From positions 1 to 64,000 of IMG/VR virus record IMGVR_UViG_3300036768_001863: DNA of 64,000 nt; one strand, given 5' to 3'. Origin of the DNA: a virus. Below, in pieces: positions 4,962 to 57,063 of this stretch. The position numbers were made by a program, and so were the translations under genes. Numbering within the stretch: the first letter of the stretch is position 1; the number at the start of each line of letters is the position of its first letter. The notes below the pieces were generated by a model that saw only the letters and a program-made list of their open reading frames with translations, made no database searches and was not told the DNA's origin.

Positions 4962-5330
4962 CTACAGACTGAGTGAAAGGATCTTGCCGTCCTCGGACCT
5001 ATAGTACAGCACGAGCGGGCGCGGGCGGTAGCCACGTTTGGCAGCGACCAGGTTGGCCAGGGGCTCCAGGTTGCCGCCGCTGGCCTGGAAGGAGGCTAGA
5101 CGGCGGCCCAGCTCGCTCAGGACGGGCGACATGGTATGGCTGACGGAGCCGCAGCGGTAGCAGGCGCTGGCAGGGGCGCGCACGGTTTGGTTGACCACAG
5201 CCATGTAGGCGTCCCGGCACGACTGCTCCCAATCGGAGAAGCCGGCGGGCAGGGTGGAGAAGAATGCTGGGTCTGCGGCCAGCTGGAACAGAGCAATGGC
5301 GTCAAGGACCAGGGGAGGTCCGTCCTTCAT
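4962..5330 (-). CDS. Unknown protein, 122 aa, CYRC motif
   Basis: The start at ATG 5330 overlaps the TGA of the glycosyltransferase gene as ATGA, indicating translational coupling. A longer open frame to 5654 exists but its extra 108 residues are an off-frame reading of the glycosyltransferase. The protein is mostly helical with one CxxC (ACYRCGS) in the middle. Coupling suggests it works with, or is dosed like, the glycosyltransferase. No family recognised. Confidence 0.6.
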   Translation of the reverse strand: MKDGPPLVLDAIALFQLAADPAFFSTLPAGFSDWEQSCRDAYMAVVNQTVRAPASACYRCGSVSHTMSPVLSELGRRLASFQASGGNLEPLANLVAAKRGYRPRPLVLYYRSEDGKILSLSL

Positions 5331-7363
5331 GGTATCTCCCCCCAGGGGAACTTCTTGCCGGGGCCCACCTGGGAAGTGCCGCGCGGCGGCGCGTCGGACC
5401 AGGCGACCGGCCACTTCTTGCTGCTGAAGTCCGCCAGCTTGAAGCCAGCCTGGTGGACCTGGGCGCCGATGCAGATGTCGCCTCCGTTGTGGACCAGGCG
5501 CTGGTCGGGGATGTGAGCGGCGCGGATGGCCTCGGTGGCCAGGGCCCAGAAGCTGCCCGTGGCGAACACGATCTGGCTGCCGTTGGGCGCCAGGCGCGTC
5601 CCCCGCTCCATGTGGAGCCAGCGTTGTCGCCACCAGGGAGCCTGCTGGAACCACTTCTCGGGATGGTAGCCGCGTTTCCGGAAGTACATCAGGTCGTGGA
5701 CGTAGCGTGGCCCGTACAGCCGGCAGCCGTGTGGGTGGCCCTGGACGATGCGCTCGGCCAGCAGGTCGAGCCAGTCGCTGGACACGACATGGCTGTCGTC
5801 GTCGAACCAGATGACGTAGGAGGTGGTGATGGGACAGGTATCGTCCCAGAACATTTCGCGCATGGCCGGGTACTTCTTGCGCGCCTGGGGGTCATTGGGG
5901 TCGGACCAGTCCGGGTAGATCCTGGTGATGGTGGCCGGGGTGAAGCCGTTCAGGTAGTCCCAGGTGCGCCGGCTGACCTGGTTGGCTGCCACGCGAATGT
6001 CCAGTCTGCCTGGCGGCGTGTGGTCCAGGATGGAACCGAGGCAGCGCTGGGCCAGCGCCGGGTAGTCGCCGTACAGCAGGATGCAGACGGTGAACTTGCC
6101 GCCGATGAATGGGTGGTCTAGCAGGGAAGTCTTGCCCGGAGGACGGGGCGGCGGCTGCTGGAACTCCTTCGGCAGGGGCGGCGACCAGGCGGCGGGTGCT
6201 GGCTGACGTGGCGTCTCTTCCGCCGAACGGTCGGTCGCTGGTGCCGGCGCGGCGGCGCTGCCGTCTCCCTCCCCCTGGCGTGCGGTCGGCGACGGGTCCG
6301 GCGTCGGTGGCGCATCGGTGACGCGGCGGTAGGTGCCCCGCGGCGGCGCGATGGGGGGCAGGATGCCTTTTTCGTAGTAGTTCATGACGGCCTCGACCAC
6401 ATGGTCCACGGTAATCATGGCCAGGCATTCCGGCACGGACTGGGGCAGGTCGCGCACGGGCCTGCGGCACAGGGAGTTCATCTTGCGGGCGTTGCTGTAG
6501 TCGGCCTGCTCGATGGGCACGACCCGGTCTTTCCAGCACCCCCGGGTCAAGTTGCCGACGCCGCAGTCGAGCAGGCCGAGCGTGTGCAGGAAGGTGTGCT
6601 CTACCTTGACGGGGGCGCACTGGTCGCCGAAGGCGGTGGGGTAGTAGCAGTTGGTGTAGGCTTCCCACCAGGGTTCTTCCCGCCCTCCCGCCACGACCAC
6701 GCACGGCTTGTCGAACACGGCTGCGATATGCATGGCGGCGGTGACGCCGCAGAGGACGCCGTCCGCGTGGTAGATGAGGCGGAAGAAGTCGCGCTCGTTG
6801 TTGGTCTTGCCGACCATGCTGGTACAGTTGTGCAGCCGCGGGTGGAAGTGCCGGTGGAAGTCGCCGCCGGCCTGGACGCAGCGGATGCCCTGGTCCGCCA
6901 GCGTGTCGATGACTTCCTGCCAGCGCTGGGCATACCAGACCTTGGCCGTCATGTCCATCTTGCCGCCGGCGACCACGACCCAGTAGCGGTGGTCAAGGAT
7001 GGGTTCCTTTTCTGCCGGACTGAGGTGGATGTCCCCTTTGGGCTCCGTGACGGGCACCTTGATGCCGACTTTGCGCTCGAAGTCCCGGTGGAACCAGCTG
7101 AGGAAGTGGACCTTGAGGCCGCTGCCGGCGGCGCGGATCCCGTCCAGGTACTCCAGGTTGACCAGCTGGCCGCTGGCGCCGTCCGGCAGGGGCTGGCAGT
7201 ATGGATTGTTGCGCCAGAAGACGTTCCGGTAATGCCCCGAGCAGTAGACCTGGTACTTCCCCGGATAGGCCCGGGCGATGTCGCGTACCAGGGCAGACAG
7301 GCAGACCGTGTCCCCCAGTGCCCAGCGGTTGTGCAGGATCAGGGTCGGCTTGCTCGGCGGCAT
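5327..7363 (-). CDS. Two-domain glycosyltransferase: GT9-like (GT-B) plus GT2-like (GT-A)
   Basis: Residues 1-345 resemble the GT9/heptosyltransferase fold. They begin with LILHNRWALGDTVCLSALVR, and the second half has a nucleotide-sugar region (HADGVLCGVTAAMHIAAVFDKPCVVVAGG). A Pro/Ala/Thr-rich linker (about 345-425) joins a GT2-type domain starting near 430 (FTVCILLYGDYPALAQRCL). The GT2 domain carries the metal-binding DDD at residues 521-523 (VIWFDDDSHV). Both folds transfer sugars from nucleotide donors in the cytoplasm. Gene order suggests glycosylation of fibre or collagen-like virion proteins, or host surface modification. The GT9-GT2 fusion is unusual. Confidence 0.8.
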   Translation of the reverse strand: MPPSKPTLILHNRWALGDTVCLSALVRDIARAYPGKYQVYCSGHYRNVFWRNNPYCQPLPDGASGQLVNLEYLDGIRAAGSGLKVHFLSWFHRDFERKVGIKVPVTEPKGDIHLSPAEKEPILDHRYWVVVAGGKMDMTAKVWYAQRWQEVIDTLADQGIRCVQAGGDFHRHFHPRLHNCTSMVGKTNNERDFFRLIYHADGVLCGVTAAMHIAAVFDKPCVVVAGGREEPWWEAYTNCYYPTAFGDQCAPVKVEHTFLHTLGLLDCGVGNLTRGCWKDRVVPIEQADYSNARKMNSLCRRPVRDLPQSVPECLAMITVDHVVEAVMNYYEKGILPPIAPPRGTYRRVTDAPPTPDPSPTARQGEGDGSAAAPAPATDRSAEETPRQPAPAAWSPPLPKEFQQPPPRPPGKTSLLDHPFIGGKFTVCILLYGDYPALAQRCLGSILDHTPPGRLDIRVAANQVSRRTWDYLNGFTPATITRIYPDWSDPNDPQARKKYPAMREMFWDDTCPITTSYVIWFDDDSHVVSSDWLDLLAERIVQGHPHGCRLYGPRYVHDLMYFRKRGYHPEKWFQQAPWWRQRWLHMERGTRLAPNGSQIVFATGSFWALATEAIRAAHIPDQRLVHNGGDICIGAQVHQAGFKLADFSSKKWPVAWSDAPPRGTSQVGPGKKFPWGEIP

Positions 7364-7406
7364 CCGTGGTCCATCTCCCCGTCGGTGCTGCTGCCTGCCT
7401 GGCCGG

Positions 7407-8717
7407 TCAGATGAACTTGGGGCCTGGCCAGTAAGAGTTCTCCTCCTTGAGGGCGCACAGGTCGGCGTCCACGTAGGGGATCAGGTGCATGTGGTGCCAG
7501 GCGGAGGGGTAGCCGTTGGACAGACGCACGGCCTGGAAGCGGCAGCGGATCTCCGGCACGTACTTGGCGAAGTTGCGGTCGGTCACGTACCAGAAGTTGT
7601 TGCTGGACCAGAAGCTCACGTGCGTTGGGTCCTGGTAGGCTCCGCGGCCGCAGCGGCCGCTGTCGTCGCAGACGGCTGGCGTGTGCGTGAGCAGGAAGCC
7701 TCCAGGCACCAGCAGGTCGTACAGGTGGTTCATGAGCCAGGGCACCCGGTTGGCGGGGATGTGCTCCAGGAAATCGAAGGCGCGGAAGCAGCCTACGGAG
7801 TTGGGCTTCAGGTAAGGGAAGAGTCCTTCGGGCTGGAGGACGTCGCACTGGATGCCCAGGGGGTGCTTCTTGACCGCGGGGTCGATGTCGATGGGGATGT
7901 AGCCGTCCGGGCAGTTGTGCGCGCCGCCCAGGTCGTACATGGGCAGCTTCTCCCGCCGGCACCACTCCCGAACAAGGTCGTGCAACCAGCGGTCGCGGTG
8001 CTCGCGCGACCGGCGCTGGATCTCTTCCACGCGGACCTGGCACGTGGTCTGGCCATTCTGCCGGTGGAAGTAAAGCGGACGGTGGATATGCTCGAAGTGG
8101 ATACCCTTGAGGTAGGTGCGGATGAGCAGTTCGTGGTCGTCCGCCACCGGCAGGTCCGGGTTATGCCCGCCGACCAGGCGGTACGCCTCCCGGCTCCAGA
8201 CACGCACATGGTCTGGCGCGTACAGGATCTCACACAGGGAGCGTGGACCGATGGGATGGTGCTCGTTGACCTTGTAGTCGCGTCCCTTGTAGCTCCAGTC
8301 AAACTGGCGCCAGCCCCAGGCAGGCGAGTAGCACTGGCTCTCGTGCTTCATGTTGCAGCTGACATCGTCCGACCAGATGAAGCACAACCTGGGGCAGCGC
8401 TGGGCCGCCGCCACGACCTCCTCCAGGCAGTCATGTGTTATCAGGTCGTCGTGGTCGTACTCTAGCAGCAGGTCGCCGACTGCGTGGTCGCAGGCGAAAC
8501 GCTTGAGCGCACCGATGTTGGTCGCGTTGGAGCGCAGCAGGCGGACCCTGCCGTCTCCCTGAGTGATGTGTTCTACCGTCGTGGCGACCAGGTCGCTCTG
8601 GTCGCCGTTGGCGACGACGACCCATTCCCAGTCCTGGTATGTCTGTTCCTGCAAGCAGGCCCACACGTCTGGCAGCCATGCGGGATTGTGGCTGGGAGTG
8701 AATACACTGACTAACAT
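7407..8717 (-). CDS. GT2-family glycosyltransferase fused to SAM methyltransferase domain
   Basis: The start at ATG 8717 shares its A with the TGA of the fibre gene (TGATG), so the two are translationally coupled. The N-terminal domain begins with the GT2 hallmark VSVFTPSHNPAWLPDVWACL and has the metal-binding DHDD at residues 88-91. The C-terminal domain (about 260-436) has a class I methyltransferase pattern: a Gly-rich start (YDLGGAHNCPDGYIPIDID), an acidic strand end, and the DFLEHIP helix at 315-321. It probably adds a sugar and methylates it, or acts on two sites of the same glycan. The coupled collagen fibre is the natural candidate substrate, by inference. Confidence 0.8.
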   Translation of the reverse strand: MLVSVFTPSHNPAWLPDVWACLQEQTYQDWEWVVVANGDQSDLVATTVEHITQGDGRVRLLRSNATNIGALKRFACDHAVGDLLLEYDHDDLITHDCLEEVVAAAQRCPRLCFIWSDDVSCNMKHESQCYSPAWGWRQFDWSYKGRDYKVNEHHPIGPRSLCEILYAPDHVRVWSREAYRLVGGHNPDLPVADDHELLIRTYLKGIHFEHIHRPLYFHRQNGQTTCQVRVEEIQRRSREHRDRWLHDLVREWCRREKLPMYDLGGAHNCPDGYIPIDIDPAVKKHPLGIQCDVLQPEGLFPYLKPNSVGCFRAFDFLEHIPANRVPWLMNHLYDLLVPGGFLLTHTPAVCDDSGRCGRGAYQDPTHVSFWSSNNFWYVTDRNFAKYVPEIRCRFQAVRLSNGYPSAWHHMHLIPYVDADLCALKEENSYWPGPKFI

Positions 8718-11506
8718 CAGCTGCTCTCTCTCCAGGAGTTCCAGAAACGCTGGTTCCGTTCCATGTCTGCGCGGGTGTGGCGGCGGAAGCGCCAGGTGTG
8801 GCCCTTGCGGACACCCGACAGCCGGACGGTCACGCAGTCCACTTCTCTGTCTGTCTGGACAACTAGTTCGTTGCCCTCTACGCGCGCTGCCACCAGGGCC
8901 AGGTGGCTGGGCACGGCGCCGACGGCCACGATGCTACCTTCTTCGCAAACGTCAAGGAAGATCGGGTCGATGCGTTGTCTCCACTGGAACGTTCTGCCAG
9001 AGGTGCTGCCTGGACGTGCCGTTACTACATGGACGACGTCCTCGAAGCGGACTTCCGGCATTTCCACACAGGCGAGAGCGACGAACTCTGGCTCGTCCCA
9101 GCCGTTCCTTCTACTGTACGGGACGATGGCTGTCTTTTCTCCAGCTGGGCCCTGGTACCCCTGGTGCCCCTGGTACCCCTGGTACCCCTGTTCCCCCTGA
9201 TACCCCTGTTCCCCCTGGTACCCCTGGTACCCCTGGTACCCCTGTTCCCCCTGGTACCCCTGGTACCCCTGTGGACCTCCAGGGTCTCCCTGGTCTCCCT
9301 GATGACCTTGACTGCCCTGGTATCCCTGGTATCCCTGGTCTCCCTGGTCTCCCTGGTCTCCCTGATGACCTTGACTGCCCTGGTATCCCTGATGACCTTG
9401 ACTGCCCTGGTATCCCTGATGACCTTGACTGCCCTGGTCTCCCTGGTATCCCTGGTTCCCCTGTTCCCCCTGTTCCCCCTGTTCCCCCTGGTACCCCTGG
9501 TGCCCCTGTTCCCCCTGTTCCCCCTGGTGCCCCTGGTACCCCTGGTGCCCCTGGTACCCCTGGTGCCCCTGGTACCCCTGGTCTCCCTGTGGACCCTGGT
9601 CTCCATCTGGCCCAGGGTCTCCCTGTGGACCCTGGTCTCCATCTGGCCCAGGGTCTCCCTGTGGACCCTGGTCTCCATCTGGCCCAGGGTCTCCCTGTGG
9701 ACCCTGGTCTCCCTGTGGACCCTGGTCTCCATCTGGCCCAGGGTCTCCCTGTGGACCCTGGTATCCCTGTGGACCAGGGTCTCCCTGTGGACCCTGGTAT
9801 CCCTGTGGACCAGGGTCTCCCTGTGGACCCTGGTATCCCTGATAACCCTGGCTGCCCTGTCCGCCGCAGCGCGGCACTTGCAGGTCAATCGACAGTTCCC
9901 AGTCGCAGTCGGTTGCGTCCCGTACCTGACTGAAGCCGTAGACAAGGAAGCCGACGTCGCCGCAAGTGACTTCGCGGATGTCCAGGAACGGGTTCAGCTT
10001 GATGCAGGGGGCAACGGCGCCGATGTCCAGGCGCCAGATGCACTGGTCTGCCGGCCCGATCCGCTCGAACAGCCAGCTGATCGTCCCTGGGCCTGGTCTG
10101 GGACGTGGCCAGACGAAGCGGGGGTTGGCCGCGGCACGGAGTTCCGGACACGGTGCCCGGCTGTTGATCTCCAGGAACCAGTTGAAGCCGACGCGGTAGA
10201 AGTACCAGTGCGTGTAGCCACCCGCTCGGCCGAACCGGATCGGCGTGTAGCGTCCTGGCCTGCGCGGCAGGACTTCCGGGCAGTTGACCCGCAGCTGCGT
10301 GATGTCCACGTGGTACTGGCAGCCGGCGAGCCTGGCCACGCGCCAGCGGATGAAGCTGCCCGTGCCAGGGTCCACCCGTGTCTGCTCCAACCTGGGGCTG
10401 ATCCGCGGGCAGGGCACGTCCAGGTAGATGTCCAGCTCGAAGTTGCACGACGGCTTCTTGGCGACGACGAAGGTTAGCTGGCCGGCGCCGAACGGGACCG
10501 GCTTCGTCTTGAACGAGCTGGGCGCGATGCGCGGGCAGTGGTACTCGCCGCTGATGTCCAGCTCGAAGGTGCAGCCGATCTTTTTGAAGCGGAAGGACAG
10601 CCGCGGCTCCCGGTTGGTGATCTCACGCAGCTTGGTTGTCCGCGTGGTCAGAGGCTGGATGGCAGGACACGGCGACGTGACGTCGATGTCCAGCTCGAAC
10701 TCGCACTCACCTGGCTTCTTTCTCTTGAACTCGTAGTTCAGCCGGCCGGTGGCTCTGTCGAAGCGGACGATCTTGGTTTCCCGGCGGCGTGGCTCCACCT
10801 TGGGGCAGGGAGCCAGGACATGGATGTCCAGGTCGAAGGAGCACCCTACCTTGAAGAAGTAGAACCAGAGCCTGCCCACCGGCTTGTCGCTCAGGAACCG
10901 GACGTACCGGCTACGGCCGGGCGGCAGAGGACGCACCTCCGGGCACGGCACGGAGACCTGGATGTCCAGGTCGTAGTCGCAGTTCGGCAGCTTCACGAAG
11001 CCGAAGCGGAGCGTACCGAGGCGGTTCCGGGAGAACGGCACTTCCCGGAAGCGAGAGGTCGGCTTGATCTTGGGGCAGTGTACCTGGGCGTCGATTTCCA
11101 GGAGCCAGTCGCAGTCCGGCAGCGGCACGAAGCCGAAGCGCAGCAGGGACGGCCCGTCCGTGAACGGGACGGAGCGCGTCTGCTGCCAGGACGGCTGCAT
11201 CTCCGGGCAGCGCACGTCGGCCTCGACCTCCAGCGCGAAGGAGCAGCAGGCTTCCTTGTGGACGGTCACATCGAGGCGTGGTGTCAGGTGGCGTCCTTGC
11301 TGGATGCTCGTCCGGGAGACAGACAGGTTGGGGCAGGGTGGCTCCGGTGGCAGTTCCGTGATGGGGGGACTGTCGCAGGCGGGTATGTCGGCCGGCGCCT
11401 CCGGGACGCTCGGGTCGCGGATCAGGTCTTCGCACGGAATGCGCGGCACGGGCTCGACCTGGCACTTTTCCGGGTCGAAGGCAAAATCATGCTGGTCGCC
11501 GGCCAT
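8717..11506 (-). CDS. Long tail fibre: Cys/LDI repeats plus collagen-like Gly-X-Y tract (929 aa)
   Basis: ATG 11506 follows GGAGG. Residues about 70-545 hold roughly ten or eleven repeats of about 45 aa, each carrying the pattern C-x-(F/W)-x-L-(D/E)-I then CP-x-(I/V/L/M)-x-P. Residues about 549-792 are an uninterrupted collagen-like tract of [15 protein letters not shown] triplets, encoded by near-identical 9-base units. The C-terminal 135 residues are non-repetitive and could be the receptor-binding or trimerisation head. This is a typical phage fibre layout: repeat shaft, collagen stalk, tip. Regular cysteines suggest disulfides or metal sites. The following glycosyltransferase gene is coupled to it. 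Confidence 0.8.
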
Positions 11507-16650: not shown

Positions 16651-17613
16651 TTACTCGCACTGGATGCAGCCCCGGTCATGGAGCCGGCTGCCAAGGACAA
16701 TGAGGTCGAACGTATTGACCGACTCGCGCAGGCGATCAACGAAGTCCTCCACGGTCGCTGCCTGCCGGTGGAGTCTTTCCAGGTCGCGCGTGATGCGCTC
16801 CAGGTCGTGGCAGTCGCAGCACGGCTGCGCGCACTTGTCCACCAGGCGGATGCCGTTGGCAATCGGCTCGACCTGGAGGCAGTCGGTGCCGACAATGTGA
16901 AAGTCGCCGGTGGGGGTCGGGCCGACTCCGTTGATGGTGCGGATGGGGTCGGTCACGGCGGCATCCCCCTCGCAGACGCATTCCTCGACCGTGCCCTCGC
17001 CGGAGATGGCATTGAAGCGGATGATTGGATCCTGTCCGGCGATGAGGACGGGGACGATCTGCATGTTCTGCCCGGCCTGAAGCTCCACGACCCCTTGCAG
17101 GGGCGGTGAGCGCTGGTCGCCGTTGACACAGACCAGCGCGGACACGCCGCGGATGATCGGCCGCACCGCGTCCGGCTCCAGCCGCGCGTTCTCCAGGGAG
17201 AAGGTCCAGAAGCCGGGCGGCTGCCCGTCGATGTTTTCCAGGCGGCCGATGACGACCTTGCCCACCGTGTCTGCGAACGGTTCGATGCCGCCCAGGACAT
17301 AGGCCGTGTTGCGCCGGTGGGCCTGCCGGGCGATGAGGGCCGTGGCCACGGGGACTGGCTCGGAGCCCGTCGCCGCCGGCTGGTAGCCGACGACCACGGA
17401 GTAGCCAGTGGCGTAGGCTCCCACGTGGCGGATGAAGAAGCGTCCGGGATCGACGTCCATGCCGGCATGCACGGGCAGGTCGAGTTCGACGATGAAGTCG
17501 TCCGGGATGGTGAAGCTGCCGGAATCGTCTATGCCGCTGGAGTCGTCCGTGAGCGGGTACTTGCGCTGCGCGTTGTGGTTGAGGAACTCCAGGTTCCAGA
17601 GGCCCAGTGACAC
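16651..17613 (-). CDS. YP-motif adhesin/fibre paralogue with CCxC module, 320 aa
   Basis: The start is GTG 17613 after GGGAGGG. The N-terminal motif is the clearest of the set (LEFLNHNAQRKYPLTDDSSG). The C-terminal third holds PIRTINGVGPTPTGDFHIVG, then DKCAQPCCDCHDLER, followed by a charged helix that could form a coiled-coil trimer stem. This N-motif plus ING/CCxC combination recurs in neighbouring genes, and I recall similar proteins in the tail regions of other large phages. Probable baseplate-attached appendage. Confidence 0.65.
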   Translation of the reverse strand: MSLGLWNLEFLNHNAQRKYPLTDDSSGIDDSGSFTIPDDFIVELDLPVHAGMDVDPGRFFIRHVGAYATGYSVVVGYQPAATGSEPVPVATALIARQAHRRNTAYVLGGIEPFADTVGKVVIGRLENIDGQPPGFWTFSLENARLEPDAVRPIIRGVSALVCVNGDQRSPPLQGVVELQAGQNMQIVPVLIAGQDPIIRFNAISGEGTVEECVCEGDAAVTDPIRTINGVGPTPTGDFHIVGTDCLQVEPIANGIRLVDKCAQPCCDCHDLERITRDLERLHRQAATVEDFVDRLRESVNTFDLIVLGSRLHDRGCIQCE

Positions 17614-20218: not shown

Positions 20219-21766
20219 TCAGATGCAATGGCCGCCGACACGGACCAGACGGACCTCCTCTTCCAGGAACGTGTCTGCCGCGACCTCTTCCTCGCAGGTG
20301 CGTCCTAGAAAGTAGCGTACTTCCTCGCTGTAGCCCGGGGCTTCCTCGCTGCCCGGGCCTTCCATGATAATCTCGTCCGTGTCCGTTTCCAACTGCATCA
20401 GGAGGATGTAGGCCATGTGCGGCGGCAGCAGTTTGCGCAGGACGCGGACATGTCCCAGGCCCAGGTGGTGCGGCCCCTGCCGGCGCGGCCGCAGCTGGAT
20501 TACCAGCAGGTTGTTGCGGAACACGTTCTGGAGCAGGAAACCGAGGGCATTGACCTTCCTGGGAAGGGCCAGCGGTCCCGGGCGCATGTCCCGGGCCTCG
20601 GGCGGCCGCGTGTCCAGCAGCATGGCCAGGGTCTGTCCACGGGCGACCCCCGCCGCGTGTGTCATGCTCCAGAACCTTTCCACATCGGCCGGGTAGCCGC
20701 CAAGCTCAAAATACACGCGCGTTGGCGTCTCCGGCCCGTCGTCCTCCACGACCAGGTCCACCTCCTTGTTGGCGAAGACCACGTCCTGGTAATACCCCTC
20801 ATCCAGGAAGCCGCGCCCGACGGCCAGGGCCTTGATTTCAGGCGGCACCTGGCCGCGGTGGAACGTGAAGAAGCGCAGCGTGTCGGTCAGCGGCTGCCCG
20901 GGCGCCAACCAGTCGCCCACGCGCACCAGCACGGTGCTGTCCCGGTGGAAGGAGTAGGCGCGCCGGCTGGTCACGACCCACTGGTGCCGGCCGTCGCGGA
21001 AGATCAGCTCGACTACCTCGTCTCCCTCAGCCAGGGGCACGTCGCAGATGGCGCTGAGGGCTGCCTCCAGGCTGCGCTCCGTGGCCCCTTCCACCAGGCA
21101 GTCGAAGACGGCGTTGACCAGCGCCAGGGCCTGCGGCGTGGACGGCAGTTGCAAGCCGACGGCGTAGCCGTACTGCGTATGCACCGCGTCTCGGTCCCAG
21201 CCGCTGCGGTACAGCCAGAGGGTTGCCTCGCGGTCCTGGACGCGGCCGTCCACGTAGATTTCCCGCTGTCCCACGCGCTCGTCCGCGAAGGGGTCTTGCC
21301 GGAACCAGATGGCCCCGTTGTCCAGGAAGAAGTCCACGCCCCTGGACCAGGTGAGGCTGGGGGAGGTGATGCGGTTGCTGATGACCAGGACATCGGCCAG
21401 TCCGGCCGGCAGCGGCCAGACATGGTAGCGCGTGTCCAGGGGCTGGTCGTACACCAGCCCGTCCGCATACGTGAACTGGCCGTCGTGGCGGGCCAGGTTG
21501 GCCACGGTCCGGTTCTTCTCAGAGGCGCGCAGGCGCAGGCAGTACCAGTTGTCCGTGTGCAACAGGGGCAGCCGGGACCGGCTCAGGCTGGCCGCCAGGT
21601 GCAGGATGTCGTCGTGGGACTGCTGGGCGAGCTGGCCCCGCGCGTACAACATGCTTTCGACCAGGAAGTTTCCCGCGTAGATGCCGGACCAGAAGCCGCC
21701 TACCTGACGCAAAAGTACCTGGGCGTTGTCGAGGTCAGACGCGGGGAAGCGGAAACTGTCGCCCAT
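20219..21766 (-). CDS. Probable baseplate-associated structural protein, 515 aa
   Basis: ATG 21766, with only a weak ribosome binding site. It is the first gene after the terminator at 21815-21851, so it needs either its own promoter or read-through. The N-terminus (SDLDNAQVLLRQVGGFWSGIY) is followed by long helical and beta segments, with many Trp, Tyr and Arg. The C-terminus is acidic (TCEEEVAADTFLEEEVRLV). The length and position fit a baseplate wedge or tail-fibre attachment protein, but no specific family was recognised. Confidence 0.55.
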   Translation of the reverse strand: MGDSFRFPASDLDNAQVLLRQVGGFWSGIYAGNFLVESMLYARGQLAQQSHDDILHLAASLSRSRLPLLHTDNWYCLRLRASEKNRTVANLARHDGQFTYADGLVYDQPLDTRYHVWPLPAGLADVLVISNRITSPSLTWSRGVDFFLDNGAIWFRQDPFADERVGQREIYVDGRVQDREATLWLYRSGWDRDAVHTQYGYAVGLQLPSTPQALALVNAVFDCLVEGATERSLEAALSAICDVPLAEGDEVVELIFRDGRHQWVVTSRRAYSFHRDSTVLVRVGDWLAPGQPLTDTLRFFTFHRGQVPPEIKALAVGRGFLDEGYYQDVVFANKEVDLVVEDDGPETPTRVYFELGGYPADVERFWSMTHAAGVARGQTLAMLLDTRPPEARDMRPGPLALPRKVNALGFLLQNVFRNNLLVIQLRPRRQGPHHLGLGHVRVLRKLLPPHMAYILLMQLETDTDEIIMEGPGSEEAPGYSEEVRYFLGRTCEEEVAADTFLEEEVRLVRVGGHCI

Positions 21767-21814: not shown

Positions 21815-21851
21815 AAAGAAAAAGGGCGGACGGTCCGTGGACCGCCCGCCC
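21815..21851 (-). terminator. Rho-independent terminator after the cytochrome/matrixin cassette
   Basis: The stem 21824-21836 with 21839-21851 is 12-13 bp and almost all G-C, with one G.U pair on the minus strand. The minus transcript then reads a U-rich run (TTTTTCTTTCC, 21823 downward). This is the clearest classical terminator in the window and follows the stop of the 230-aa secreted protein by about 42 bases. Confidence 0.85.
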
Positions 21852-21892: not shown

Positions 21893-22585
21893 TCAATGAC
21901 AGCTCGGGCAGTCGGCTTGGCCCAGGCCCCGGCAGCCACGGTCGGAACGGTAGTTGACCTGCCGCTGCTGGCGAATGACCGCTTGCGGACGCTCCTGGAC
22001 GGTCACTCGCTCGATCACGCTGCGGAACTCCTGGTAGTTGGAGCCTTTCTCGCGCACCTGGTCCGAGCAGCAGCCGTCCGGGCAGGAAGCGGACCTGTCT
22101 TCCTGCTGTGTCACGTCAGCGGCCGGCGCCACGTAGCGGCGCTCGATCACCTCGGTGCGCACGGTCGCCGGGGCCGCGTAATAGTAGACCACGTTGTCTG
22201 GCACAAAGCGCACGTTGGCAGCGCTGTGGTTCGCAAAGCTGAACGTGTTCAGCTGGTTCAGCAGGCCGCGGGAGCGCCGGTCCACCAGCAGCTGCTCGCT
22301 GACGACGTGGCCAGGCACCACGTTGTTATGGACGACCAGTCTGCGCTGCCCGCTGCTGCTCACTGCGGCGGTCGCCGCGGCACCGCCTGTCGTGGTCACG
22401 CGGGTCGTGCTGCGCCGGCCAAACAGGGCGCCGAGCAGGCCGCCGCTCCGCTCCGTCTGGGTCACTGTCTGCTGCGTGTTGCCGCTGCGGACAGCTAAAG
22501 AATTGCCCCGTGCGGCCTGCGGGCCGCCGGTGCCTACCAGCAGGGCGGCTGCCGTGCCGACAAGGGCAACCAGGGACTTGGGCAT
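21893..22585 (-). CDS. Secreted protein ending in CxxCH, 230 aa
   Basis: The start is set at ATG 22585 after AAGGAGG. Residues 1-27 look like a Sec signal peptide (MPKSLVALVGTAAALLVG). The middle is low in cysteine and beta-rich. The end has a Cys cluster (ASCPDGCCSDQV) and the very last five residues are C226-P-S-C-H230, a c-type heme-binding pentapeptide at the extreme C-terminus. The protein is the third of three consecutive CxxCH proteins. It may be a periplasmic partner of the two cytochrome-like proteins. Heme attachment at a terminal motif is uncertain. Confidence 0.65.
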   Translation of the reverse strand: MPKSLVALVGTAAALLVGTGGPQAARGNSLAVRSGNTQQTVTQTERSGGLLGALFGRRSTTRVTTTGGAAATAAVSSSGQRRLVVHNNVVPGHVVSEQLLVDRRSRGLLNQLNTFSFANHSAANVRFVPDNVVYYYAAPATVRTEVIERRYVAPAADVTQQEDRSASCPDGCCSDQVREKGSNYQEFRSVIERVTVQERPQAVIRQQRQVNYRSDRGCRGLGQADCPSCH

Positions 22586-22632
22586 CGTTTGCCTCCTTCT
22601 GTCTGTGCGCTGGTTGGGGGATGGGTGAAGTG

Positions 22633-23322
22633 TCATTCTCCCTTGGACAGGGCATACTGGAGGAGCGTGGCCAGGTGTTTGGGCTCCATTGCCTTGGAAG
22701 CGTCGTTGGCAGCGGTCGGCGGCATCGTACCGCTGGATGCCATGCCGTAAATCTTCCAGCGCTTGTCACTGCTGTGCCGGGCCAGGACCAGGCCGCCGCT
22801 GCCGTCGTCCAGGACCAGGCGGAACTCCGTGCCGTTGGGACCGCTGGCGCGCCCGGACGCACCGTGGCAGCCAAGGCAGTTGGCACGTCCCTGGTATGCC
22901 GCGATGACCTGCTGCTGGAGTTCCAGAGGAGTCGCCGTGTCCGGCGCCAGGGACTGGGGCTTGTTGGGCTGCTGGGGCTGGTTGGTGGACTGTGGACGTG
23001 GCGCTGTCGGCTGCGGCACGTTACCGGACACCAGGGCGCGCAGCTCCTCTCGGATGACGTCGCGGATGTAGGCTTTCTCGCGGTACGCCTCTCCGATGGA
23101 GTAGTAGTACGGCTGGCCGTAGGCGTACACGGGCACGGCCCGCGAGTCCACGGGCACGGTTACGACATAGGGAGCGACGGCGATCTCCTGGGCAATGATC
23201 TTCTGCACGGGGTAGACCTGGGGTGCCGGCGCCGTGTAGGTGTGGGAGTAGTTGGAGCAAGGTACGCTCCGTTGGGGTTGCCCTGGCAGCAGTGCCAGGG
23301 CAAGGAACATGGCCGAGTGCAT
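22633..23322 (-). CDS. c-type cytochrome-like secreted protein, 229 aa
   Basis: ATG 23322 after AAAGGAGAG. A short hydrophobic N-terminus (FLALALLPG) could be a signal peptide. Residues about 20-140 are Pro/Gln/Tyr-rich and probably extended. The C-terminal domain is a mono-heme cytochrome c type: C149-L-G-C-H153 for covalent heme, then GTMPP with Met200 in the usual place of the axial ligand, and a final helix. It would act outside the cytoplasm in electron transfer. Such domains are common in planctomycetes and rare in phages. Confidence 0.8.
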   Translation of the reverse strand: MHSAMFLALALLPGQPQRSVPCSNYSHTYTAPAPQVYPVQKIIAQEIAVAPYVVTVPVDSRAVPVYAYGQPYYYSIGEAYREKAYIRDVIREELRALVSGNVPQPTAPRPQSTNQPQQPNKPQSLAPDTATPLELQQQVIAAYQGRANCLGCHGASGRASGPNGTEFRLVLDDGSGGLVLARHSSDKRWKIYGMASSGTMPPTAANDASKAMEPKHLATLLQYALSKGE

Positions 23323-23335
23323 CCTTGCTCTCCTT

Positions 23336-25012
23336 TCACTTGTCAGGGCGCATTTTCCCGCTTTTGCGGCGTTCGAGCAAGAGCAACCCGGACTCCTGGA
23401 AGCCGCCGCGCTCCCAGGTATGGCGCGGTACGGGCACGCCGGAGAGGGCCAGGCGTCCCAGGCGTCCTTTGGTGGACCCTTCCGGGTAGTCGGGCGTGCC
23501 AGGACCGTAGGCGAGGGCGTCGGACAGCTCCTGGGCGTCCGTGCCCAGCTCGCGCGCCGCCTGGTCCAGCGTGACGGGCTTGTTGTACCAGGCCCGGATT
23601 CGCTGGAAGCTCTGCACGCTCTCCTGCGGCGTCAGGCCCGTGCATTCACGGACGAACTCGGCATAGTTCTCCTGGTCCTGCTGGATCAGCTTCCGCATCT
23701 TCTGCTCTTGCAGGTGGAACTGGTTGATCCGCTCCATGCGGCCGGCGTCGTAGGCATAGAGCTTGAGCCCCTCGCGCAAAAGCAGGGGCATCTCGTTGCG
23801 GTAGCCCAGGATGCCGACGTCGTGGCAGTGGATGCAGGAGCGTGGCGTGAGCAGAACCGTGTTGTGCGGACCGGACGGGTCTCCCTTGACCAGGAACGGG
23901 TTGGCGAAGTCCACCCCTTTGCCCTGGCCGTCGCTGAGGAAGTAATACTGGGCGCCGCGCTCGTCCTGGAAGATGTGTTCTCCGGCGTCGAACTTCAGCG
24001 GGAAGGGGTTCTGCACGAAGTCCTGGTCCCCGGCCGTGCGGAAGACATCGAAAGTGCGCCAGTAAATTCCGATCTTGCTACGCACGCGCCAGACGATGCG
24101 GTTGTTGTAAGCCACGCCGGACATGCCCTGGTCGATCAGCCCTCCCTTGTCGGTCGGGAACTCCTTGAGGTGGTCGAACTCCACCAGCCAGGCCGACTCG
24201 AACTCGGCCGCCGTGCGCGGCGCCTCGCCCTTGACCTTCGTTTTGACCTTCTTGACGACCTCGACCTCCTCCTCGTGCGGCCGCACGCTACCGTCCGTGT
24301 AGCGGTAGTTCACGACCTTCTTTTCCTTCACCTTCTTCTCGACCACGCGGTCAAAGGTGGCATTGGCGTACAGCAGCTGGTAGTAGAACGCCTTGGGGTT
24401 GAAGATCTCTGCTCCCTTGGCGTTGATGAACTCGCCGTTGTCGAAGACGTACCACAGCCACCAGTCACCGCGCACGACGGGGTTGGCCCGCGTCTCGTGC
24501 CGCAGGTAGTTCAGCCCCTTGGCGGCGCTGGGGATGATCGGCTCGCGGTAGTACGGGTCTTCCGCGGAGATATTCTCCCAGACCTGTGGCGACCAGTTGA
24601 ACCAGCACAGGTCGATCCAGTAGATGCGGTTGTCCGTGTTGGGCACGGGCCGTGGCAGGTAAGTGATCGGCGTGCGCGCCGCGTCGTTGCACCCCTTGAA
24701 CAGGGCGCTGGTAGCCGCGGGCAAGAGCTGCCGTGGCACCTCGGCCAGGCTGAAGAAGCGGATGCGGCAACGGTCCTTGTCGTTGACCGTGGCCAGGAAC
24801 TCGGCGCAGCGCTCGAAGATCTGCTCTGGGCTCCAGGCCGGAAACTCGGGCGTCAGCCGGTTGCGCAGGCGCTCCAGGTGCGGGTCGGGCGGCTTCTCGG
24901 CCTGCTTTGCCGCGTTCGTTCCCTGGGCAGGGGCCGGTGGCGCTGCTCCTTCTTGCGCCAGTAAGGCAACGGCTACCGTCGCCAGGCCAAGGACAGCGAC
25001 CAGCTGGCGCAT
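23336..25012 (-). CDS. Secreted cytochrome-c-type domain protein, 558 aa
   Basis: The start is set at ATG 25012 after GGGAGGACC. The open frame extends to 25516, but that part is an off-frame reading of the matrixin gene. Residues 1-24 form a signal peptide (MRQLVAVLGLATVAVALLAQ). The body is rich in Trp, Tyr and charged residues. A single heme-c motif lies at C393-I-H-C-H397, followed by VGILGYRNEMPLLLREG. The C-terminal 100 residues are helical. The layout recalls large planctomycete secreted proteins with one cytochrome domain. The substrate or redox partner is unknown; the next gene encodes a small cytochrome that could accept electrons. Confidence 0.75.
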   Translation of the reverse strand: MRQLVAVLGLATVAVALLAQEGAAPPAPAQGTNAAKQAEKPPDPHLERLRNRLTPEFPAWSPEQIFERCAEFLATVNDKDRCRIRFFSLAEVPRQLLPAATSALFKGCNDAARTPITYLPRPVPNTDNRIYWIDLCWFNWSPQVWENISAEDPYYREPIIPSAAKGLNYLRHETRANPVVRGDWWLWYVFDNGEFINAKGAEIFNPKAFYYQLLYANATFDRVVEKKVKEKKVVNYRYTDGSVRPHEEEVEVVKKVKTKVKGEAPRTAAEFESAWLVEFDHLKEFPTDKGGLIDQGMSGVAYNNRIVWRVRSKIGIYWRTFDVFRTAGDQDFVQNPFPLKFDAGEHIFQDERGAQYYFLSDGQGKGVDFANPFLVKGDPSGPHNTVLLTPRSCIHCHDVGILGYRNEMPLLLREGLKLYAYDAGRMERINQFHLQEQKMRKLIQQDQENYAEFVRECTGLTPQESVQSFQRIRAWYNKPVTLDQAARELGTDAQELSDALAYGPGTPDYPEGSTKGRLGRLALSGVPVPRHTWERGGFQESGLLLLERRKSGKMRPDK

Positions 25013-25035: not shown

Positions 25036-25998
25036 TCAGGCAACTTTCTTGCCGTTCAGCCACACGGCATGGAACCGTCCCCGAACCACCAGCTCCGCTT
25101 CGCCTCCGGCCGCAGCGCCATCGGGCGGCGCCGGCGCGTCCTGGCGCGCGCCGTACCGCGCCTGGAAGCGGGGAATGTCGTCGTTCTCCTGGGGCACCTG
25201 GACCGCGGCGTTGTAGTAGGGGGCCATGAGGGCAGACGGCACCCTGCTGTGGTCCAGGCCGAACAGGTGGCCGAACTCGTGACAGGCCACGTTGAGCAGC
25301 AGGATACCGCGCCGCTTCGGGTCCAAGGTCCAGGTTTCGTCCGCGTCGAAGCGCATCAGGAGCTGGTTGTCTCTGCCGGTGGGCAGCTGGGCCCAGGCCA
25401 ACGTGCCGCCGGGGCCATCGAAGTGGGACTGGGGTCCCTGGCCGGTGGCGATCAAGATGTCGGCCTTGCCCTGCTGCCGGACCGGCTCCACATTGATGTT
25501 GCCGTGGCGCGTCCATGCCTGGAAGGCTTCATGGACCGTGCTCTCGAAGTCGGTCCGGGAGATCCCCGGGACGTATTCCAGGATAAAGTACGTGAGGCGG
25601 TCCTTTTGCCAGCGCGGCAGGTTGGCACGGATGAACTGCCGCACGGTGTCGGACGGGTGGCCAGCACGGGCGTGCTCCGGGAAGCCGCAGCGCGGCGCCG
25701 TCATCGCGCGCACGGTCTGGACGCAGACCTTGCCGGTGCGCGGCAGACCGAACCAGGACTGGAAGTCCTTGATAGCGGCGACGATGTCGTCGGCCTGGAT
25801 GTCGCGCCAGCTGGCCAGTTCCTGCGGCAGGTAGCCGAAGGTGTCGAGGTAGGACAGGACGAAGCGGGCGACCTGTGCGTCCGGCGCGTGCCCCCGGTGG
25901 CAGCGGCGCCGTGGCCGGCCGGTGCAGTGGCTGTCCTTCGCCCCTGCCTCCATGTGTTGCAAGAGAAGGTTGACTGCCTTCTGGTTGACGGCTGCCAT
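25036..25998 (-). CDS. Matrixin-type (MMP-like) zinc metalloprotease with cysteine-switch prodomain, 320 aa
   Basis: The start is set at ATG 25998 after AAGGAGG. Residues about 45-105 match the MMP prodomain/peptidoglycan-binding fold (FVLSYLDTFGYLPQEL ... FQSWFGLPRTG). It ends in the cysteine-switch sequence PRCGFPE with Cys104. The catalytic domain carries H240-E-F-G-H244 and GLDH250 (HEFGHLFGLDHS), and a Met-turn (SALMAPYY). These are the defining features of M10A matrixins, where the switch Cys holds the zinc inactive until cleavage. No clear signal peptide is present, so export with the virion or by lysis is possible. Unusual for a phage. Confidence 0.85.
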   Translation of the reverse strand: MAAVNQKAVNLLLQHMEAGAKDSHCTGRPRRRCHRGHAPDAQVARFVLSYLDTFGYLPQELASWRDIQADDIVAAIKDFQSWFGLPRTGKVCVQTVRAMTAPRCGFPEHARAGHPSDTVRQFIRANLPRWQKDRLTYFILEYVPGISRTDFESTVHEAFQAWTRHGNINVEPVRQQGKADILIATGQGPQSHFDGPGGTLAWAQLPTGRDNQLLMRFDADETWTLDPKRRGILLLNVACHEFGHLFGLDHSRVPSALMAPYYNAAVQVPQENDDIPRFQARYGARQDAPAPPDGAAAGGEAELVVRGRFHAVWLNGKKVA

Positions 25999-26029: not shown

Positions 26030-27682
26030 CTACATGTCGGACGGGACCGTCGCAGCCACCGAGATGCCGATGTCTTCGGGAGAGATGAAGAACTGCACAG
26101 TCCGCGCACTGACCATGCTCGCTGGCTCATCGGGCACGTCCAGCCTCTCGCTACTGCGCAGGTAGCGGACCGAACTGTCGGGATACCGGATGCGTCCCAG
26201 CATGTCAATAGCAGACACGGTCTGGTCGTTGCGCAGGTAGGCGTGGACCACGTCTTGCAGGCGCGACGCATCGAGCCGTCCGATGAAGCCGATGCGGTTG
26301 ATCTCGGTGGCCAAGGCGTCCCGGATGCGGTCCAGGTCCGGGTCGGGCTCGCCGGAGCGCTTGTGGATGGTGAAATGCAGCTGGACGAAGCAGGGCACGG
26401 GGGCCTTGACCAGCAGGTCGTGCGTCGCCGGCCGTTGCTCGCGCGTGCTGAAGTAGTCCTGGATGTCGGCCAGCAGCGGCATGAGGCGGGCCTCCAGCTC
26501 GTACTCCTTCCGGGCGCCGAGGTCGAGGGAGCTGGTGTCCGTTTCCGTGTCATGGAACTGGACCGTGCCGGCCTGGTAGCGGCTGTAGACCCACTCGACG
26601 GAGTCCGGCAGCACGTCTGGAATGAAGCCTGGGCCGGTCAGGTCTGCCACGCGCGTGTCGCGGACGAGAGGGAATCCTCCCGCTGCCGGCGCGGACCGCC
26701 GGGGGCGGATGTTGCCGACCTCGTAGTAGCCGGGTGCCTCGTCCCGGCCGATGGAGAATTGCCAGATGCCGCTACCGTCCGGGCGCTTCTCCACCAGCAC
26801 GGCCTCCTTGACCAGGAGCTGGCGGTGGACCTGCTCCTGGCTACGGACATACCAATCGACGCGGCCGCCTCCGGCCACGGGGAAGATCCAGTGCCGGTCC
26901 CGGCGCATCTCCGGGTCGCCGTAGCCGACCACGGACAGGTGGACGATGTGTGCGAACGCCTCCACGTCGCGCAGCGTGGCGGACATGTGGACGCGTCCGG
27001 CCAGCCCCTTGGCGGCGATGCCTTCTTGCAGGCGCAGCAGGAGTTCCTGGTTGGTTTCTGCCCGGCGGCCGCCCTGGAAGTCCTGGGAGGCGAACGAAGT
27101 GACGTAGGCGGTGGGCGGGGACAGGGGCACGACCAGGGTGTCCTTCTTGATCTCGTACTCTTCCCCCTCTTCTTCCGCTTCCACCTCGATGGTGAAGGCG
27201 AAATGGCCGTCGCCCGTGGGCGACAGCAGACGGTCGCCTGGCTCGTTGATGCTGGACTCTTCCACCTTGGCCGAGAACACGCGCGTGGCAAGGAAGCGCT
27301 TGCCCTGGGCCTCGAACACGCTTCCGGCCGCAATGGTGACGGTGACGTCGTCGCGCAGGATGATGGTCACATGGCCCCTGGCCCGGCTGCCTGGCTTGCG
27401 CCGCAGCCGGTAGTTGGACAGCACGTCATCGACCAAATCGGGGTCCGCCAGGAGGGGGTCGGCCTCCAGGGCGCGCAGGCTGCGCGCCAGCCAGTAGTCC
27501 TGGATGCTGGCCTGCCGTTGCGTCTCCAGAACCGCGTGGTAATAGGCCAGCAGTTCGGCAAAGACGCCGCGGCGGACGTCCAAGTGGGGATTGTCTTCCT
27601 GGATGCGCTGGAGGATCTCGGTCAGGTTCTGTTCCACCTGGTCCGGGTCCAGCTGTGCCAGGGGCCGAAGTCGGATCGTCAT
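26030..27682 (-). CDS. Baseplate J-like wedge protein, 550 aa
   Basis: The start at ATG 27682 overlaps the preceding stop as ATGA. The N-terminal helix (LDPDQVEQNLTEILQRIQED) and the following LLAYYHAVLETQRQASIQDY segment are typical of baseplate J/gp6-like wedge proteins. The central region has the usual beta-rich GHVTIILRDDVTVTIAAGSVF pattern, and the C-terminal third has the duplicated alpha/beta domain (VQLHFTIHKRSGEPD, IRDALATEINRIGFIGRLD). It forms the ring of the baseplate around the tail hub. Its position next to the gp25-like gene supports this. Confidence 0.85.
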   Translation of the reverse strand: MTIRLRPLAQLDPDQVEQNLTEILQRIQEDNPHLDVRRGVFAELLAYYHAVLETQRQASIQDYWLARSLRALEADPLLADPDLVDDVLSNYRLRRKPGSRARGHVTIILRDDVTVTIAAGSVFEAQGKRFLATRVFSAKVEESSINEPGDRLLSPTGDGHFAFTIEVEAEEEGEEYEIKKDTLVVPLSPPTAYVTSFASQDFQGGRRAETNQELLLRLQEGIAAKGLAGRVHMSATLRDVEAFAHIVHLSVVGYGDPEMRRDRHWIFPVAGGGRVDWYVRSQEQVHRQLLVKEAVLVEKRPDGSGIWQFSIGRDEAPGYYEVGNIRPRRSAPAAGGFPLVRDTRVADLTGPGFIPDVLPDSVEWVYSRYQAGTVQFHDTETDTSSLDLGARKEYELEARLMPLLADIQDYFSTREQRPATHDLLVKAPVPCFVQLHFTIHKRSGEPDPDLDRIRDALATEINRIGFIGRLDASRLQDVVHAYLRNDQTVSAIDMLGRIRYPDSSVRYLRSSERLDVPDEPASMVSARTVQFFISPEDIGISVAATVPSDM

Positions 27683-29056: not shown

Positions 29057-29803
29057 TTACAGCAAGGGCCGCATTTCCATCACCTCGTCCAGCTTCTTCT
29101 GGATGCGCAACTTGGCCTGGCTGATGGCCCCAGGGCTGCGCCGGAGCTTGGCAGCGATGTCCTGGTTGGGCAGGGGCCGGCGGCCGTGCAGGCCGAGGCT
29201 GTATTCCATCACCTTCTTGTGGTACGGGTCGAGTTCGTCGTAGACGATCTCCAGCAGGGTATCGTCCCGTTGCCGGACCAGGTCGTTGACGCCCCCAATG
29301 ACGCCTTCCTGGTTCGTGGCCCTGGTCACGGCGCTTTCGGACACGGCGGGATGGTACTTCCGCACCAGGGCCAGCCGGCGGGCCGAGATCCCGGTCCGGT
29401 CGGAGATCTCCTCGTCCGTTGGCTCTCGCCCCAGCTCGTTCTCCAGTTCCCGCGTGGCCGCTTCCAGGTGGTGGCGGTCCAGGGAGACGCGCTCGGGCAC
29501 CTTGACCGTCTGGAGTTGCTGGCGGGCGAAGCGCCGGAGTCCGAGCAGTTGGTTGTAGATGTGGGTGCGCAGCCGGCCGCGCAGCGGGTCGTAGCTGCGC
29601 AGCCCCTGCAAGGCCATGATCCTGGCCCGACCGAGCAGGTTCGGGTTGGACGCGCCGATGTGCGTCTGGATGGCCCCCTCGATGGTCGGCTGCAGCGCCT
29701 TGAGGATGGCCGCGTTGGTGTCGGGGCTCGGGTTTGCCTTCCAGGAGCGGTAAATCTCCCGGAACTCGTCTTCGATCAGGCCATCCGAACGTTCCCTGCT
29801 CAT
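29057..29803 (-). CDS. Phage RNA polymerase sigma-70-family factor, 248 aa
   Basis: ATG 29803 after AGGAG. Residues about 60-95 form a region-2-like helix pair. The clearest part is region 3 (LENELGREPTDEEISDRTGIS, quoted in part, about 120-140), the pattern of FliA/SigH-type factors. The C-terminal region 4 helix-turn-helix (LPNQDIAAKLRRSPGAISQAK) should contact the -35 element. It would redirect host RNA polymerase to phage late promoters. Its location inside the baseplate genes could give positive feedback on virion gene expression. Confidence 0.8.
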   Translation of the reverse strand: MSRERSDGLIEDEFREIYRSWKANPSPDTNAAILKALQPTIEGAIQTHIGASNPNLLGRARIMALQGLRSYDPLRGRLRTHIYNQLLGLRRFARQQLQTVKVPERVSLDRHHLEAATRELENELGREPTDEEISDRTGISARRLALVRKYHPAVSESAVTRATNQEGVIGGVNDLVRQRDDTLLEIVYDELDPYHKKVMEYSLGLHGRRPLPNQDIAAKLRRSPGAISQAKLRIQKKLDEVMEMRPLL

Positions 29804-55419: not shown

Positions 55420-57063
55420 CTAGATGAGGGGCGATTCCGCAATGACCGTCTCGCTGCCGTCTCCCCACAGGGCGACCAGCTGCGAGCGCGTCCCCATGCC
55501 GCTGCTCAGGCTCAGGCTGCCCGTGTCGTTGCGCAGGTAAAGACGGACCCGGTTGGGCAATGGTATCTGGGGCGCCGGGATCTCTTCCAGCTCGATGTAG
55601 TCGCCGATTCCCACTCCCTGGGCTCCCTGGGCTCCCTGGGCTCCCTGGGCGCCACCGCTGCTGCTGTGCGTGAAGCTGAGGACCACCTGGTCGTTCGCGG
55701 CAAAGGAGCCGTTGCCGGTGATGTAGGACACCGTGAACTTGCGGTAGCCGTTGCCGTTTATCACGTTGCCGCTGACAACGTAGACGGCGAACCGGCTGCT
55801 GTCATCTTCCTTGAAGATGCGCAGGATGCCTCGGTGGGAGACCGGGCCCGTGTCGTCGAAGCTGTCCAGCCAAGAGGTCCGGTCCGCCAGCAGGCGGTCC
55901 AGGTTGTCGGCGTAGATGGTCGTGACCGAGGACGGGACGGCGTGGTCGTAGCGCAGGTAGCCGGGCCCCGGGTCCGAGTCCAGCAGAGACGAGGAGAACG
56001 TGTATGGCGCGCTGTTGCCGCCGGCGTCTCCCCGGCTGCCCTGTGCCCCTGGCACGCCCTGGGCGCCTTGCGCCCCAGGTGGTCCCTGCGCCCCCTGGTC
56101 GCCCTGGAAGCCGGCGTCTCCGGGGCTGCCCTGCGCCCCCTGGGAACCTGTGGCTCCAGGCTGTCCCTGCTCGCCGGCGGGGCCCTGGGGGCCCTGGAGT
56201 CCGGTGCTGCCGGCAGGCCCCTGTTCCCCCGGCACGCCCTGGGCTCCCTGCGGACCAGGGTCGCCCTGTGCCCCCTGGTTCCCCTGGTAGCCCTGGTCGC
56301 CCGGGATGCCTGGCTCCCCCTGGAACCCCTGGGCTCCCACGGCGCCCTGGGCGCCTGTCTCACCCTGCGGTCCCATCGGACCCTGGGCCCCCACGGCGCC
56401 CTGGGCACCTACCGGACCTTGCATGCCCATTGGACCCTGGGCCCCTGTTGGCCCCTGGGGACCAGCATCTCCCTGTTTCCCCTGGGCACCGCTCAGGCCG
56501 GCCATGCCTTGCCTGCCCTGTGCCCCCTGGCTGCCCTGGGCGCCCACGGCACCCTGGGGACCGGCCGGCCCCACCGCGCCTTGGGCGCCGGCCACCCCCT
56601 GCGGCCCCTGGGGACCGGCACTTCCCTGCTTGCCCTGTGCTCCTTGGCTGCCCTGTACGCCGGCTGGACCCTGCGCCCCCACCACTCCCTGGGCGCCGAC
56701 CGGACCCTGAGCCCCCGTCTGGCCCTGGGGGCCTGCTGGGCCCTGCGCCCCCACTGTGCCCTGGGCGCCGACCGGACCCTGAGCCCCCGTCGGACCCTGG
56801 GGGCCTGCTGGTCCCGTGGCGCCGGGCGGACCCTGCTGGCCCGTGGCACCCTGGGCGCCCTGTGGACCTGGACTGCCCTGGCTGCCCTGGAAGCCGTGCG
56901 CTGGCCCCTGGAATCCCTGGGCGCCGACTGGACCGGGCTGGCCCTGGTATCCCTGGTGGCCACGGATGCCTTGGTAGCCGCGTAGTCCCCGCGGGCCCTG
57001 GCTCCCCTGAAAGCCGCGCACGCCGCTGGGACCGGGCGGGCCTTCCCGAGCGGTGGTTGTCAT
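55420..57063 (-). CDS. Collagen-like fibre/head-fibre protein, 547 aa
   Basis: ATG 57063 after GAGGAGG. Residues 7 to about 345 are Gly-X-Y triplets ([20 protein letters not shown] and similar) with a single interruption near [11 protein letters not shown]. Residues about 345-547 form a globular beta domain ([20 protein letters not shown]) with another short GAQ repeat near residue 475. Trimeric collagen-like stalks ending in a globular tip are used as capsid or tail fibres. It follows the capsid genes, so a head-fibre role is plausible. Confidence 0.75.

Follow-up and report, generated by a model that had tools for sequence, protein, structure and literature searches.

The stretch of DNA analysed here (the window, 64,000 nucleotides) covers the opening 64 kb of IMGVR_UViG_3300036768_001863, a virus record of 177,475 bp in the IMG/VR collection. 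Three consecutive genes at 21893-25012, here denoted A, B and C, had been predicted from the sequence to encode c-type heme proteins. The arrangement itself is confirmed: all three genes lie on the minus strand, each protein has one CxxCH motif, and the individual motifs (CIHCH in A, CLGCH followed by GTMPP in B and a C-terminal CPSCH in C) are found where the original prediction placed them (Table 1). The order of transcription is baseplate J, a matrixin-type metalloprotease, A, B, C, a hairpin and a 515-amino-acid (aa) protein gene. As described below, A and B, and not C, recur as a pair with conserved motifs, and they probably encode an exported heme redox module.

Table 1. Genes and features of the A-B-C locus (positions in the window)
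Feature	Position	Strand	Description
Baseplate J-like protein gene	26030..27682	-	phage context
Matrixin-type (M10) metalloprotease with peptidoglycan-binding-like domain	25036..25992	-	Peptidase_M10 E 1.1e-33, PG_binding_1 E 2.3e-6; start codon approximate
Gene A	23336..25012	-	558 aa, predicted exported, one CxxCH (C393-I-H-C396-H397)
Gene B	22633..23322	-	229 aa, predicted exported, CLGCH 149-153, Met200 in GTMPP
Gene C	21893..22585	-	230 aa counted from ATG at 22585, hydrophobic leader, C-terminal CPSCH
Terminator-like hairpin	21824..21851	-	12-pair stem, 10 G-C, then TTTTTCTTT
515-aa protein gene, 3' of the module	20219..21766	-	kept in L009 and L030

The pair was read at 15 distinct loci (the window, L009, L010, L017, L020, L023, L024, L025, L026, L027, L049, L050, L051, L053 and L054). 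The order A then B is kept at all 15, with a gap of about -10 to 594 nt, and exactly one CxxCH is present in each of the 15 A and each of the 15 B proteins. At L027 a 191-aa, exported-looking open reading frame (ORF) sits between the two genes. The pair-bearing phage contigs span 19-595 kb and the loci read have a GC content of 40-71%. On L009, a 234.9-kb contig, A is 58% identical to that of the window and is flanked by the same genes left and right; the gene order near the locus also agrees, with protein identities of 40-78% (30% for C). Among 50,697 deposited phage records, A is carried by LR756511.1 alone, a 595-kb phage record; in the same collection window B as query found no match and the B of LR756511.1 found only its own record. 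Further A genes were reached via LR756511.1 on IMG/VR contigs of 340.9, 103.4, 50.9, 18.8, 343.4, 254.0, 98.7 and 83.0 kb, and additional ones lie on IMG/VR contigs of 54.4, 48.8, 61.3, 61.9 and 51.4 kb. The 103.4-kb contig was not counted, as it comes from the same sample as the 340.9-kb contig and has the same A and B. A profile built from ten B proteins detected B in 11 of 12 records and in four of five further ones; in the fifth (L053) B was read directly. Four of the loci (L024, L027, L049 and L053) come from IMG 3300047160, a tropical soil coassembly (PMC10434106) and the only sample that could be linked to a source environment.

The ratio of nonsynonymous to synonymous divergence (dN/dS, Nei-Gojobori) is 0.10-0.34 for A (four pairs, a fifth being saturated) and 0.10-0.28 for B (five pairs), values that are rough because dS runs from 0.7 to 2.7; judged by these ratios, both genes are under purifying selection. 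The distances between A proteins and between B heme domains are correlated (r = 0.90), a value that none of 10000 label permutations equalled. By this comparison A and B travel together; the correlation alone is no proof of contact, since co-inheritance would suffice to produce it.

A heuristic gene call of the 177-kb record gave CxxCH in 4 of 139 ORFs, against a mean of 0.48 in residue shuffles; at least four were reached in 3 of 2000 shuffles, and three neighbouring ones in none of the 2000. The fourth ORF (16651-17613) has a CCDCH that reads CCDCK in a relative 79% identical to it. The motif of C is not conserved either: its closest relative ends in HHCR and lacks CPSCH, and among the nine loci at which a third gene could be read CxxCH is found in the window copy alone, being absent from the other eight. 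C is therefore probably no cytochrome, and the predicted count of three heme proteins is cut to two, the conservation of the motif in homologues having held for A and B and failed for C. The third gene keeps a hydrophobic start (above threshold in 8/9, the window copy just below it) and often has a high Gly, Val or Tyr content (16.3% Tyr in L024); dN/dS for two pairs is 0.09 and 0.45. Hydrophobic leaders are present in all three window proteins, as predicted, with the qualification that the weakest is that of C rather than that of B (best 9-residue means 2.72, 2.81 and 2.26 for A, B and C).

Protein B consists of a Pro/Gln/Tyr-rich N-terminal half and a C-terminal monoheme cytochrome c-like domain. 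An M-P motif follows CxxCH at +38 to +53 in all 15 B proteins. In a genome-level search, B orthologues were above the cut-off of Cytochrome_CBB3 (PF13442) in 5 of 16 records, two of them only once neighbouring stretches were included. The best match is the B of L053, with 29.7 bits as a single protein and 32.4 at genome level (cut-off 27). All ten B proteins examined have a hydrophobic N-terminus above a threshold that is reached by 2 of the 48 called window ORFs, and in the window and L009 copies the start has no positive charge. On these features we take B to be a class I cytochrome c that carries an additional low-complexity stretch at its N-terminus.

For protein A, 17 rows were aligned: the 15 loci, a second A of LR756511.1 and an A domain from Neorhizobium. 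The CxxCH residues (C393, C396 and H397) are kept in all 17, as are 13 more positions (N109, P153, Y154, R181, D183, Y210, V300, R305, G315, D342, E345, R530 and E534). No Met, His or Lys is conserved as a second axial ligand; the best column has His in 12/17 rows and Arg in the window. Five-coordinate c-hemes exist, so that the missing ligand does not exclude heme. Beyond the motif, no Cys or His is conserved in at least 15 of the 17 rows. The leaders of nine of the ten A proteins examined exceed the hydrophobicity reached by 2/48 window ORFs, and the tenth has, by eye, a twin-arginine-like start.

The sole cellular relative found for A, in a plasmid search, is WP_227705619.1, a c-type cytochrome of Neorhizobium petrolearium (NZ_CP123001.1), two A searches of cellular genome contigs having returned no relative. 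Residues ~471-906 of this protein align with A 53-494 at 19% identity over 510 columns (E 7e-14, single comparison). In this protein cytochrome c domains are followed by a Cytochrome_CBB3/PSCyt1 heme domain (370-445) and then by the A domain (~471-906). Fusion elsewhere of two otherwise separate proteins is classic evidence of joint function. With this protein A has a cellular relative, which bears on A as a candidate auxiliary metabolic gene, a phage-borne homologue of a host metabolic protein. In NZ_CP123001.1 (L019:1-10200) the gene follows genes annotated as members of the caspase, OmpA and ferredoxin reductase families, a run that is possibly a cellular operon around the A domain.

We think it probable that the products of A and B work together as a c-type heme redox module of two exported proteins, encoded by the phage, matured by the host and acting in the host envelope. 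This reading is built on conservation, hydrophobic leaders, pairing, phage context and the cellular fusion; heme attachment, the direction of electron flow, catalysis by A and action in the envelope are extrapolated from these. The leaders would carry A and B across the host inner membrane, where covalent heme would be attached by the host cytochrome c maturation machinery. We infer a role of the host here because the cytochrome c assembly family PF01578 is matched in none of 12 records searched (the pair-bearing G011-G015 fell outside this search), compared with 9 of 14 control genomes. B would act as a class I monoheme electron shuttle, with the His of CxxCH and the Met of the M-P motif as ligands and a flexible Pro/Tyr-rich stretch. 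A would be the larger partner, a reductase or oxidase that acts on a small molecule or on some part of the envelope, and not a plain transfer protein: with no conserved Met, His or Lys ligand and with Tyr154 and Tyr210 invariant, its heme site would probably be open or Tyr-ligated, and hence suited to chemistry. The earlier suggestion that the phage reroutes periplasmic electrons is plausible. A planctomycete host is not shown by the data: phage B proteins match 'Planctomycete cytochrome C' only below the model cut-off, YTV (PF07639) is matched in 0/16 records and by control genomes only below cut-off, and PSCyt1 is matched neither in the window record nor in any control genome.

Several results weigh against this reading. 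Window B is under every Pfam cut-off (Cytochrom_C 16.4 bits, cut-off 21.3), and as single proteins fewer B sequences pass PF13442 than at genome level, L053 passing and L017, L049 and L050 scoring slightly below. Five A proteins gave nothing above cut-off in Pfam and NCBIfam, and window A has no match in PHROGs; lacking a match to a known cytochrome family, the CxxCH of A could in principle bind metal. AlphaFold2 models were unusable for both proteins (mean pLDDT 39.9 for A from a 4-row alignment, 32.8 for B from a 3-row alignment), and A profiles run against solved structures gave nothing convincing, the one cytochrome-named row being cbb3 subunit II at E 0.6. The cellular support comes from a single relative, and the pair is rare in the deposited phage collection, with A in one record. 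Lastly, the 194-kb record G010 (locus L030), distantly related to the window phage, shares the tail-gene order of that phage at 31-37% identity and is without A and B. The slot between baseplate J and the homologue of the 515-aa protein in G010 (L030:5018-9113) is occupied by different genes; on inspection these look like an exported protein and a papain-like ORF, but they are not matched by profiles of those families from other loci.

The lack of a cytochrome model match and of a conserved second ligand in A would suit an arrangement in which only B is a cytochrome and A is an exported protein with some other function, whose CxxCH binds a metal or plays a structural part. We regard this as unlikely, since the motif of A is kept in 17/17 rows with no further conserved Cys or His to complete a zinc site, A stands beside B at every one of the 15 loci, and in Neorhizobium the A domain is fused to cytochrome c domains.

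The pair sits in a tail operon in the window phage and in L009, between the baseplate J and matrixin genes and the 515-aa gene, a position that would suit A and B as parts of the virion, cytochromes on the tail that come into contact with the host envelope during infection. The main support for this idea is that position, seen in a single lineage. The scanned neighbours at four other loci are the thymidylate synthase ThyX (L024, L025), the tRNA-His guanylyltransferase Thg1 (L010) and portal (L027), of which portal is itself structural, and the leaders suggest export from the infected cell. Export leaders are normally absent from virion proteins. We consider a virion role improbable.

The matches to baseplate J, wedge and minor tail protein models identify the window record as phage. 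In the rest of the record (74 proteins, families pooled) DNA polymerase, primase and replicative helicase are matched, which together with baseplate J and wedge places the pair on a true phage genome; the same pool matches RNA polymerase beta subunits, ribonucleotide reductase and thymidylate synthase. No terminase or portal model matches anywhere in the record, which would reflect divergence, or a record that is a fragment. Terminase is matched in 9/16 records and portal in 3/16, together in 10 of the 15 pair-bearing records. This is support rather than proof of phage origin, because the same models match 11/14 and 4/14 bacterial and archaeal control genomes, where the matches might be prophages or cross-matches.

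A separate, 182,719-bp IMG/VR contig has a 100% identical copy of 21,674 bases (13339-35012), which, with the syntenic L009, counts against the concern that the record might be chimeric; chimerism of the locus is unlikely as read from this copy. The contig was left out of the locus count, since the two records may derive from common reads or from one virus population. Coincidental CxxCH motifs in unrelated genes, or a phage contig with a piece of host DNA joined on, would suit C, whose CPSCH is missing in 8/9 third genes, and the want of a terminase or portal match in the window record, but for A and B this is scarcely credible: it is already contradicted by motif conservation at 15 loci and in the 17 aligned A rows, and the residue shuffles, the identical contig and syntenic relative, and terminase and portal matches that all fall in pair-bearing records speak against it as well.

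The operon was predicted to adjoin baseplate J and to end at a strong terminator. Baseplate J does lie upstream, with the matrixin gene intervening directly upstream of A; a strong terminator-like hairpin is indeed present at 21851-21824, whereas terminator-like sites as a class are no commoner than in shuffles (5 observed, 4.1 expected, standard deviation 1.9). At 8 of the 15 loci a protease gene lies a short way upstream of A; the proteases belong to two unrelated types, and some score at or slightly below the model cut-offs. An M10 protease is above cut-off in the window, L009 and L051; a papain-like protease is just above cut-off at L017 and just below at L010, L020 and L025, and that of L023, separated from A by one small ORF, was found only by a profile containing L023 itself. 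Candidates at L024 and L026, which by eye resemble C39 and sedolisin respectively, have no Pfam match. The Pfam protease scan excluded the flanks of L027, L049, L050, L053 and L054.

A ~240-285-aa, exported-looking family precedes A at L010, L017, L020, L023, L024, L026 and L027; the profile built from these has a weak further match at L049 (E 3e-12) and none in the window record or L009. Second, shorter A-like genes are found in two huge phages, LR756511.1 (L014:1447-2625, 392 aa, CIACH) and G007 (L042:1507-2703, 398 aa, CVACH), with no second B found. Directly before each is an exported-looking cysteine-peptidase-like gene (in LR756511.1 a C39 match of 15 bits, below the cut-off of 22; in G007 by eye), and by eye a thymidylate-synthase-like gene lies nearby downstream. 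Elsewhere in the window record there are two collagen-repeat genes (8717-11506, Pfam Collagen E 5.5e-39, and 55420-57063, E 5.3e-55) and two glycosyltransferase-like genes (Glyco_transf_9, Glycos_transf_2) within one gene run at 5327-8717. In the tail operon, a 248-aa protein (29057-29803) matches sigma-70 region 3 above cut-off (33.8 bits), with identities of 63% in L009 and 37% in L030.

The upstream proteases and the frequent Gly/Val/Tyr-richness of C hint at work on the envelope. Speculatively, and with only a small chance of being right, A might be an exported catalytic heme enzyme and B its dedicated cytochrome, which with the upstream phage protease would oxidise the envelope of the infected cell, for example by cross-linking the low-complexity protein C or host wall proteins; such a system would let the phage remodel the host surface by redox chemistry. 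For the redox module as such, the recurrence of the pair on distantly related phage contigs suggests that these viruses interfere with redox reactions at the surface of the host cell. Phages are already known to carry metabolic genes; here a conserved, putatively exported pair is found on 15 distinct contigs, and if the module is real, electron transfer outside the cytoplasm is a target of diverse phages, most of them uncultured. A and B also provide a marker pair for finding more such phages.

In the broad sense the pair would be a phage redox gene cassette, with a partner family, A, that is unnamed in any searched library. No conserved two-gene exported heme module in phages is described among the titles and abstracts listed from the open-licence literature, and the main text of PMC7162821 contains neither 'cytochrome' nor 'LR756511'. 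The claim that cytochromes are almost unknown as phage genes is fair and yet not absolute, cases being given in PMC8190135 and PMC12542629. The former describes phage soxD on two contigs, with CxxCHG as the conserved motif; the first cytochrome motif is missing in one contig and the second in both. The latter mentions a Microcystis virus 'cytochrome C'. A study of viral nitrogen-cycle genes (PMC8115048), in contrast, reports having observed no such electron carriers in its phages.

Compared with the class I cytochromes c (PF00034, PF13442, PF07635), B shares CxxCH, a later M-P motif and, in five records, a PF13442 score above cut-off; it differs in the Pro/Tyr/Gln-rich N-terminal stretch of varying length and in a window copy that stays below cut-off. 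The Neorhizobium protein resembles the pair in having a B-like heme domain fused ahead of the A domain; it is a single 1157-aa protein with extra cytochrome c domains and a DUF4384 below cut-off, whereas the phages have two genes with one CxxCH each. Phage SoxD, compared by its published description (PMC8190135), is likewise a c-type-cytochrome-like metabolic gene on phage contigs, but it is a subunit of a known enzyme, the cytochrome subunit of sulfane dehydrogenase, with SoxC as its partner. In the A-B pair, by contrast, the partner A has no family model, and CxxCH is present in every member.

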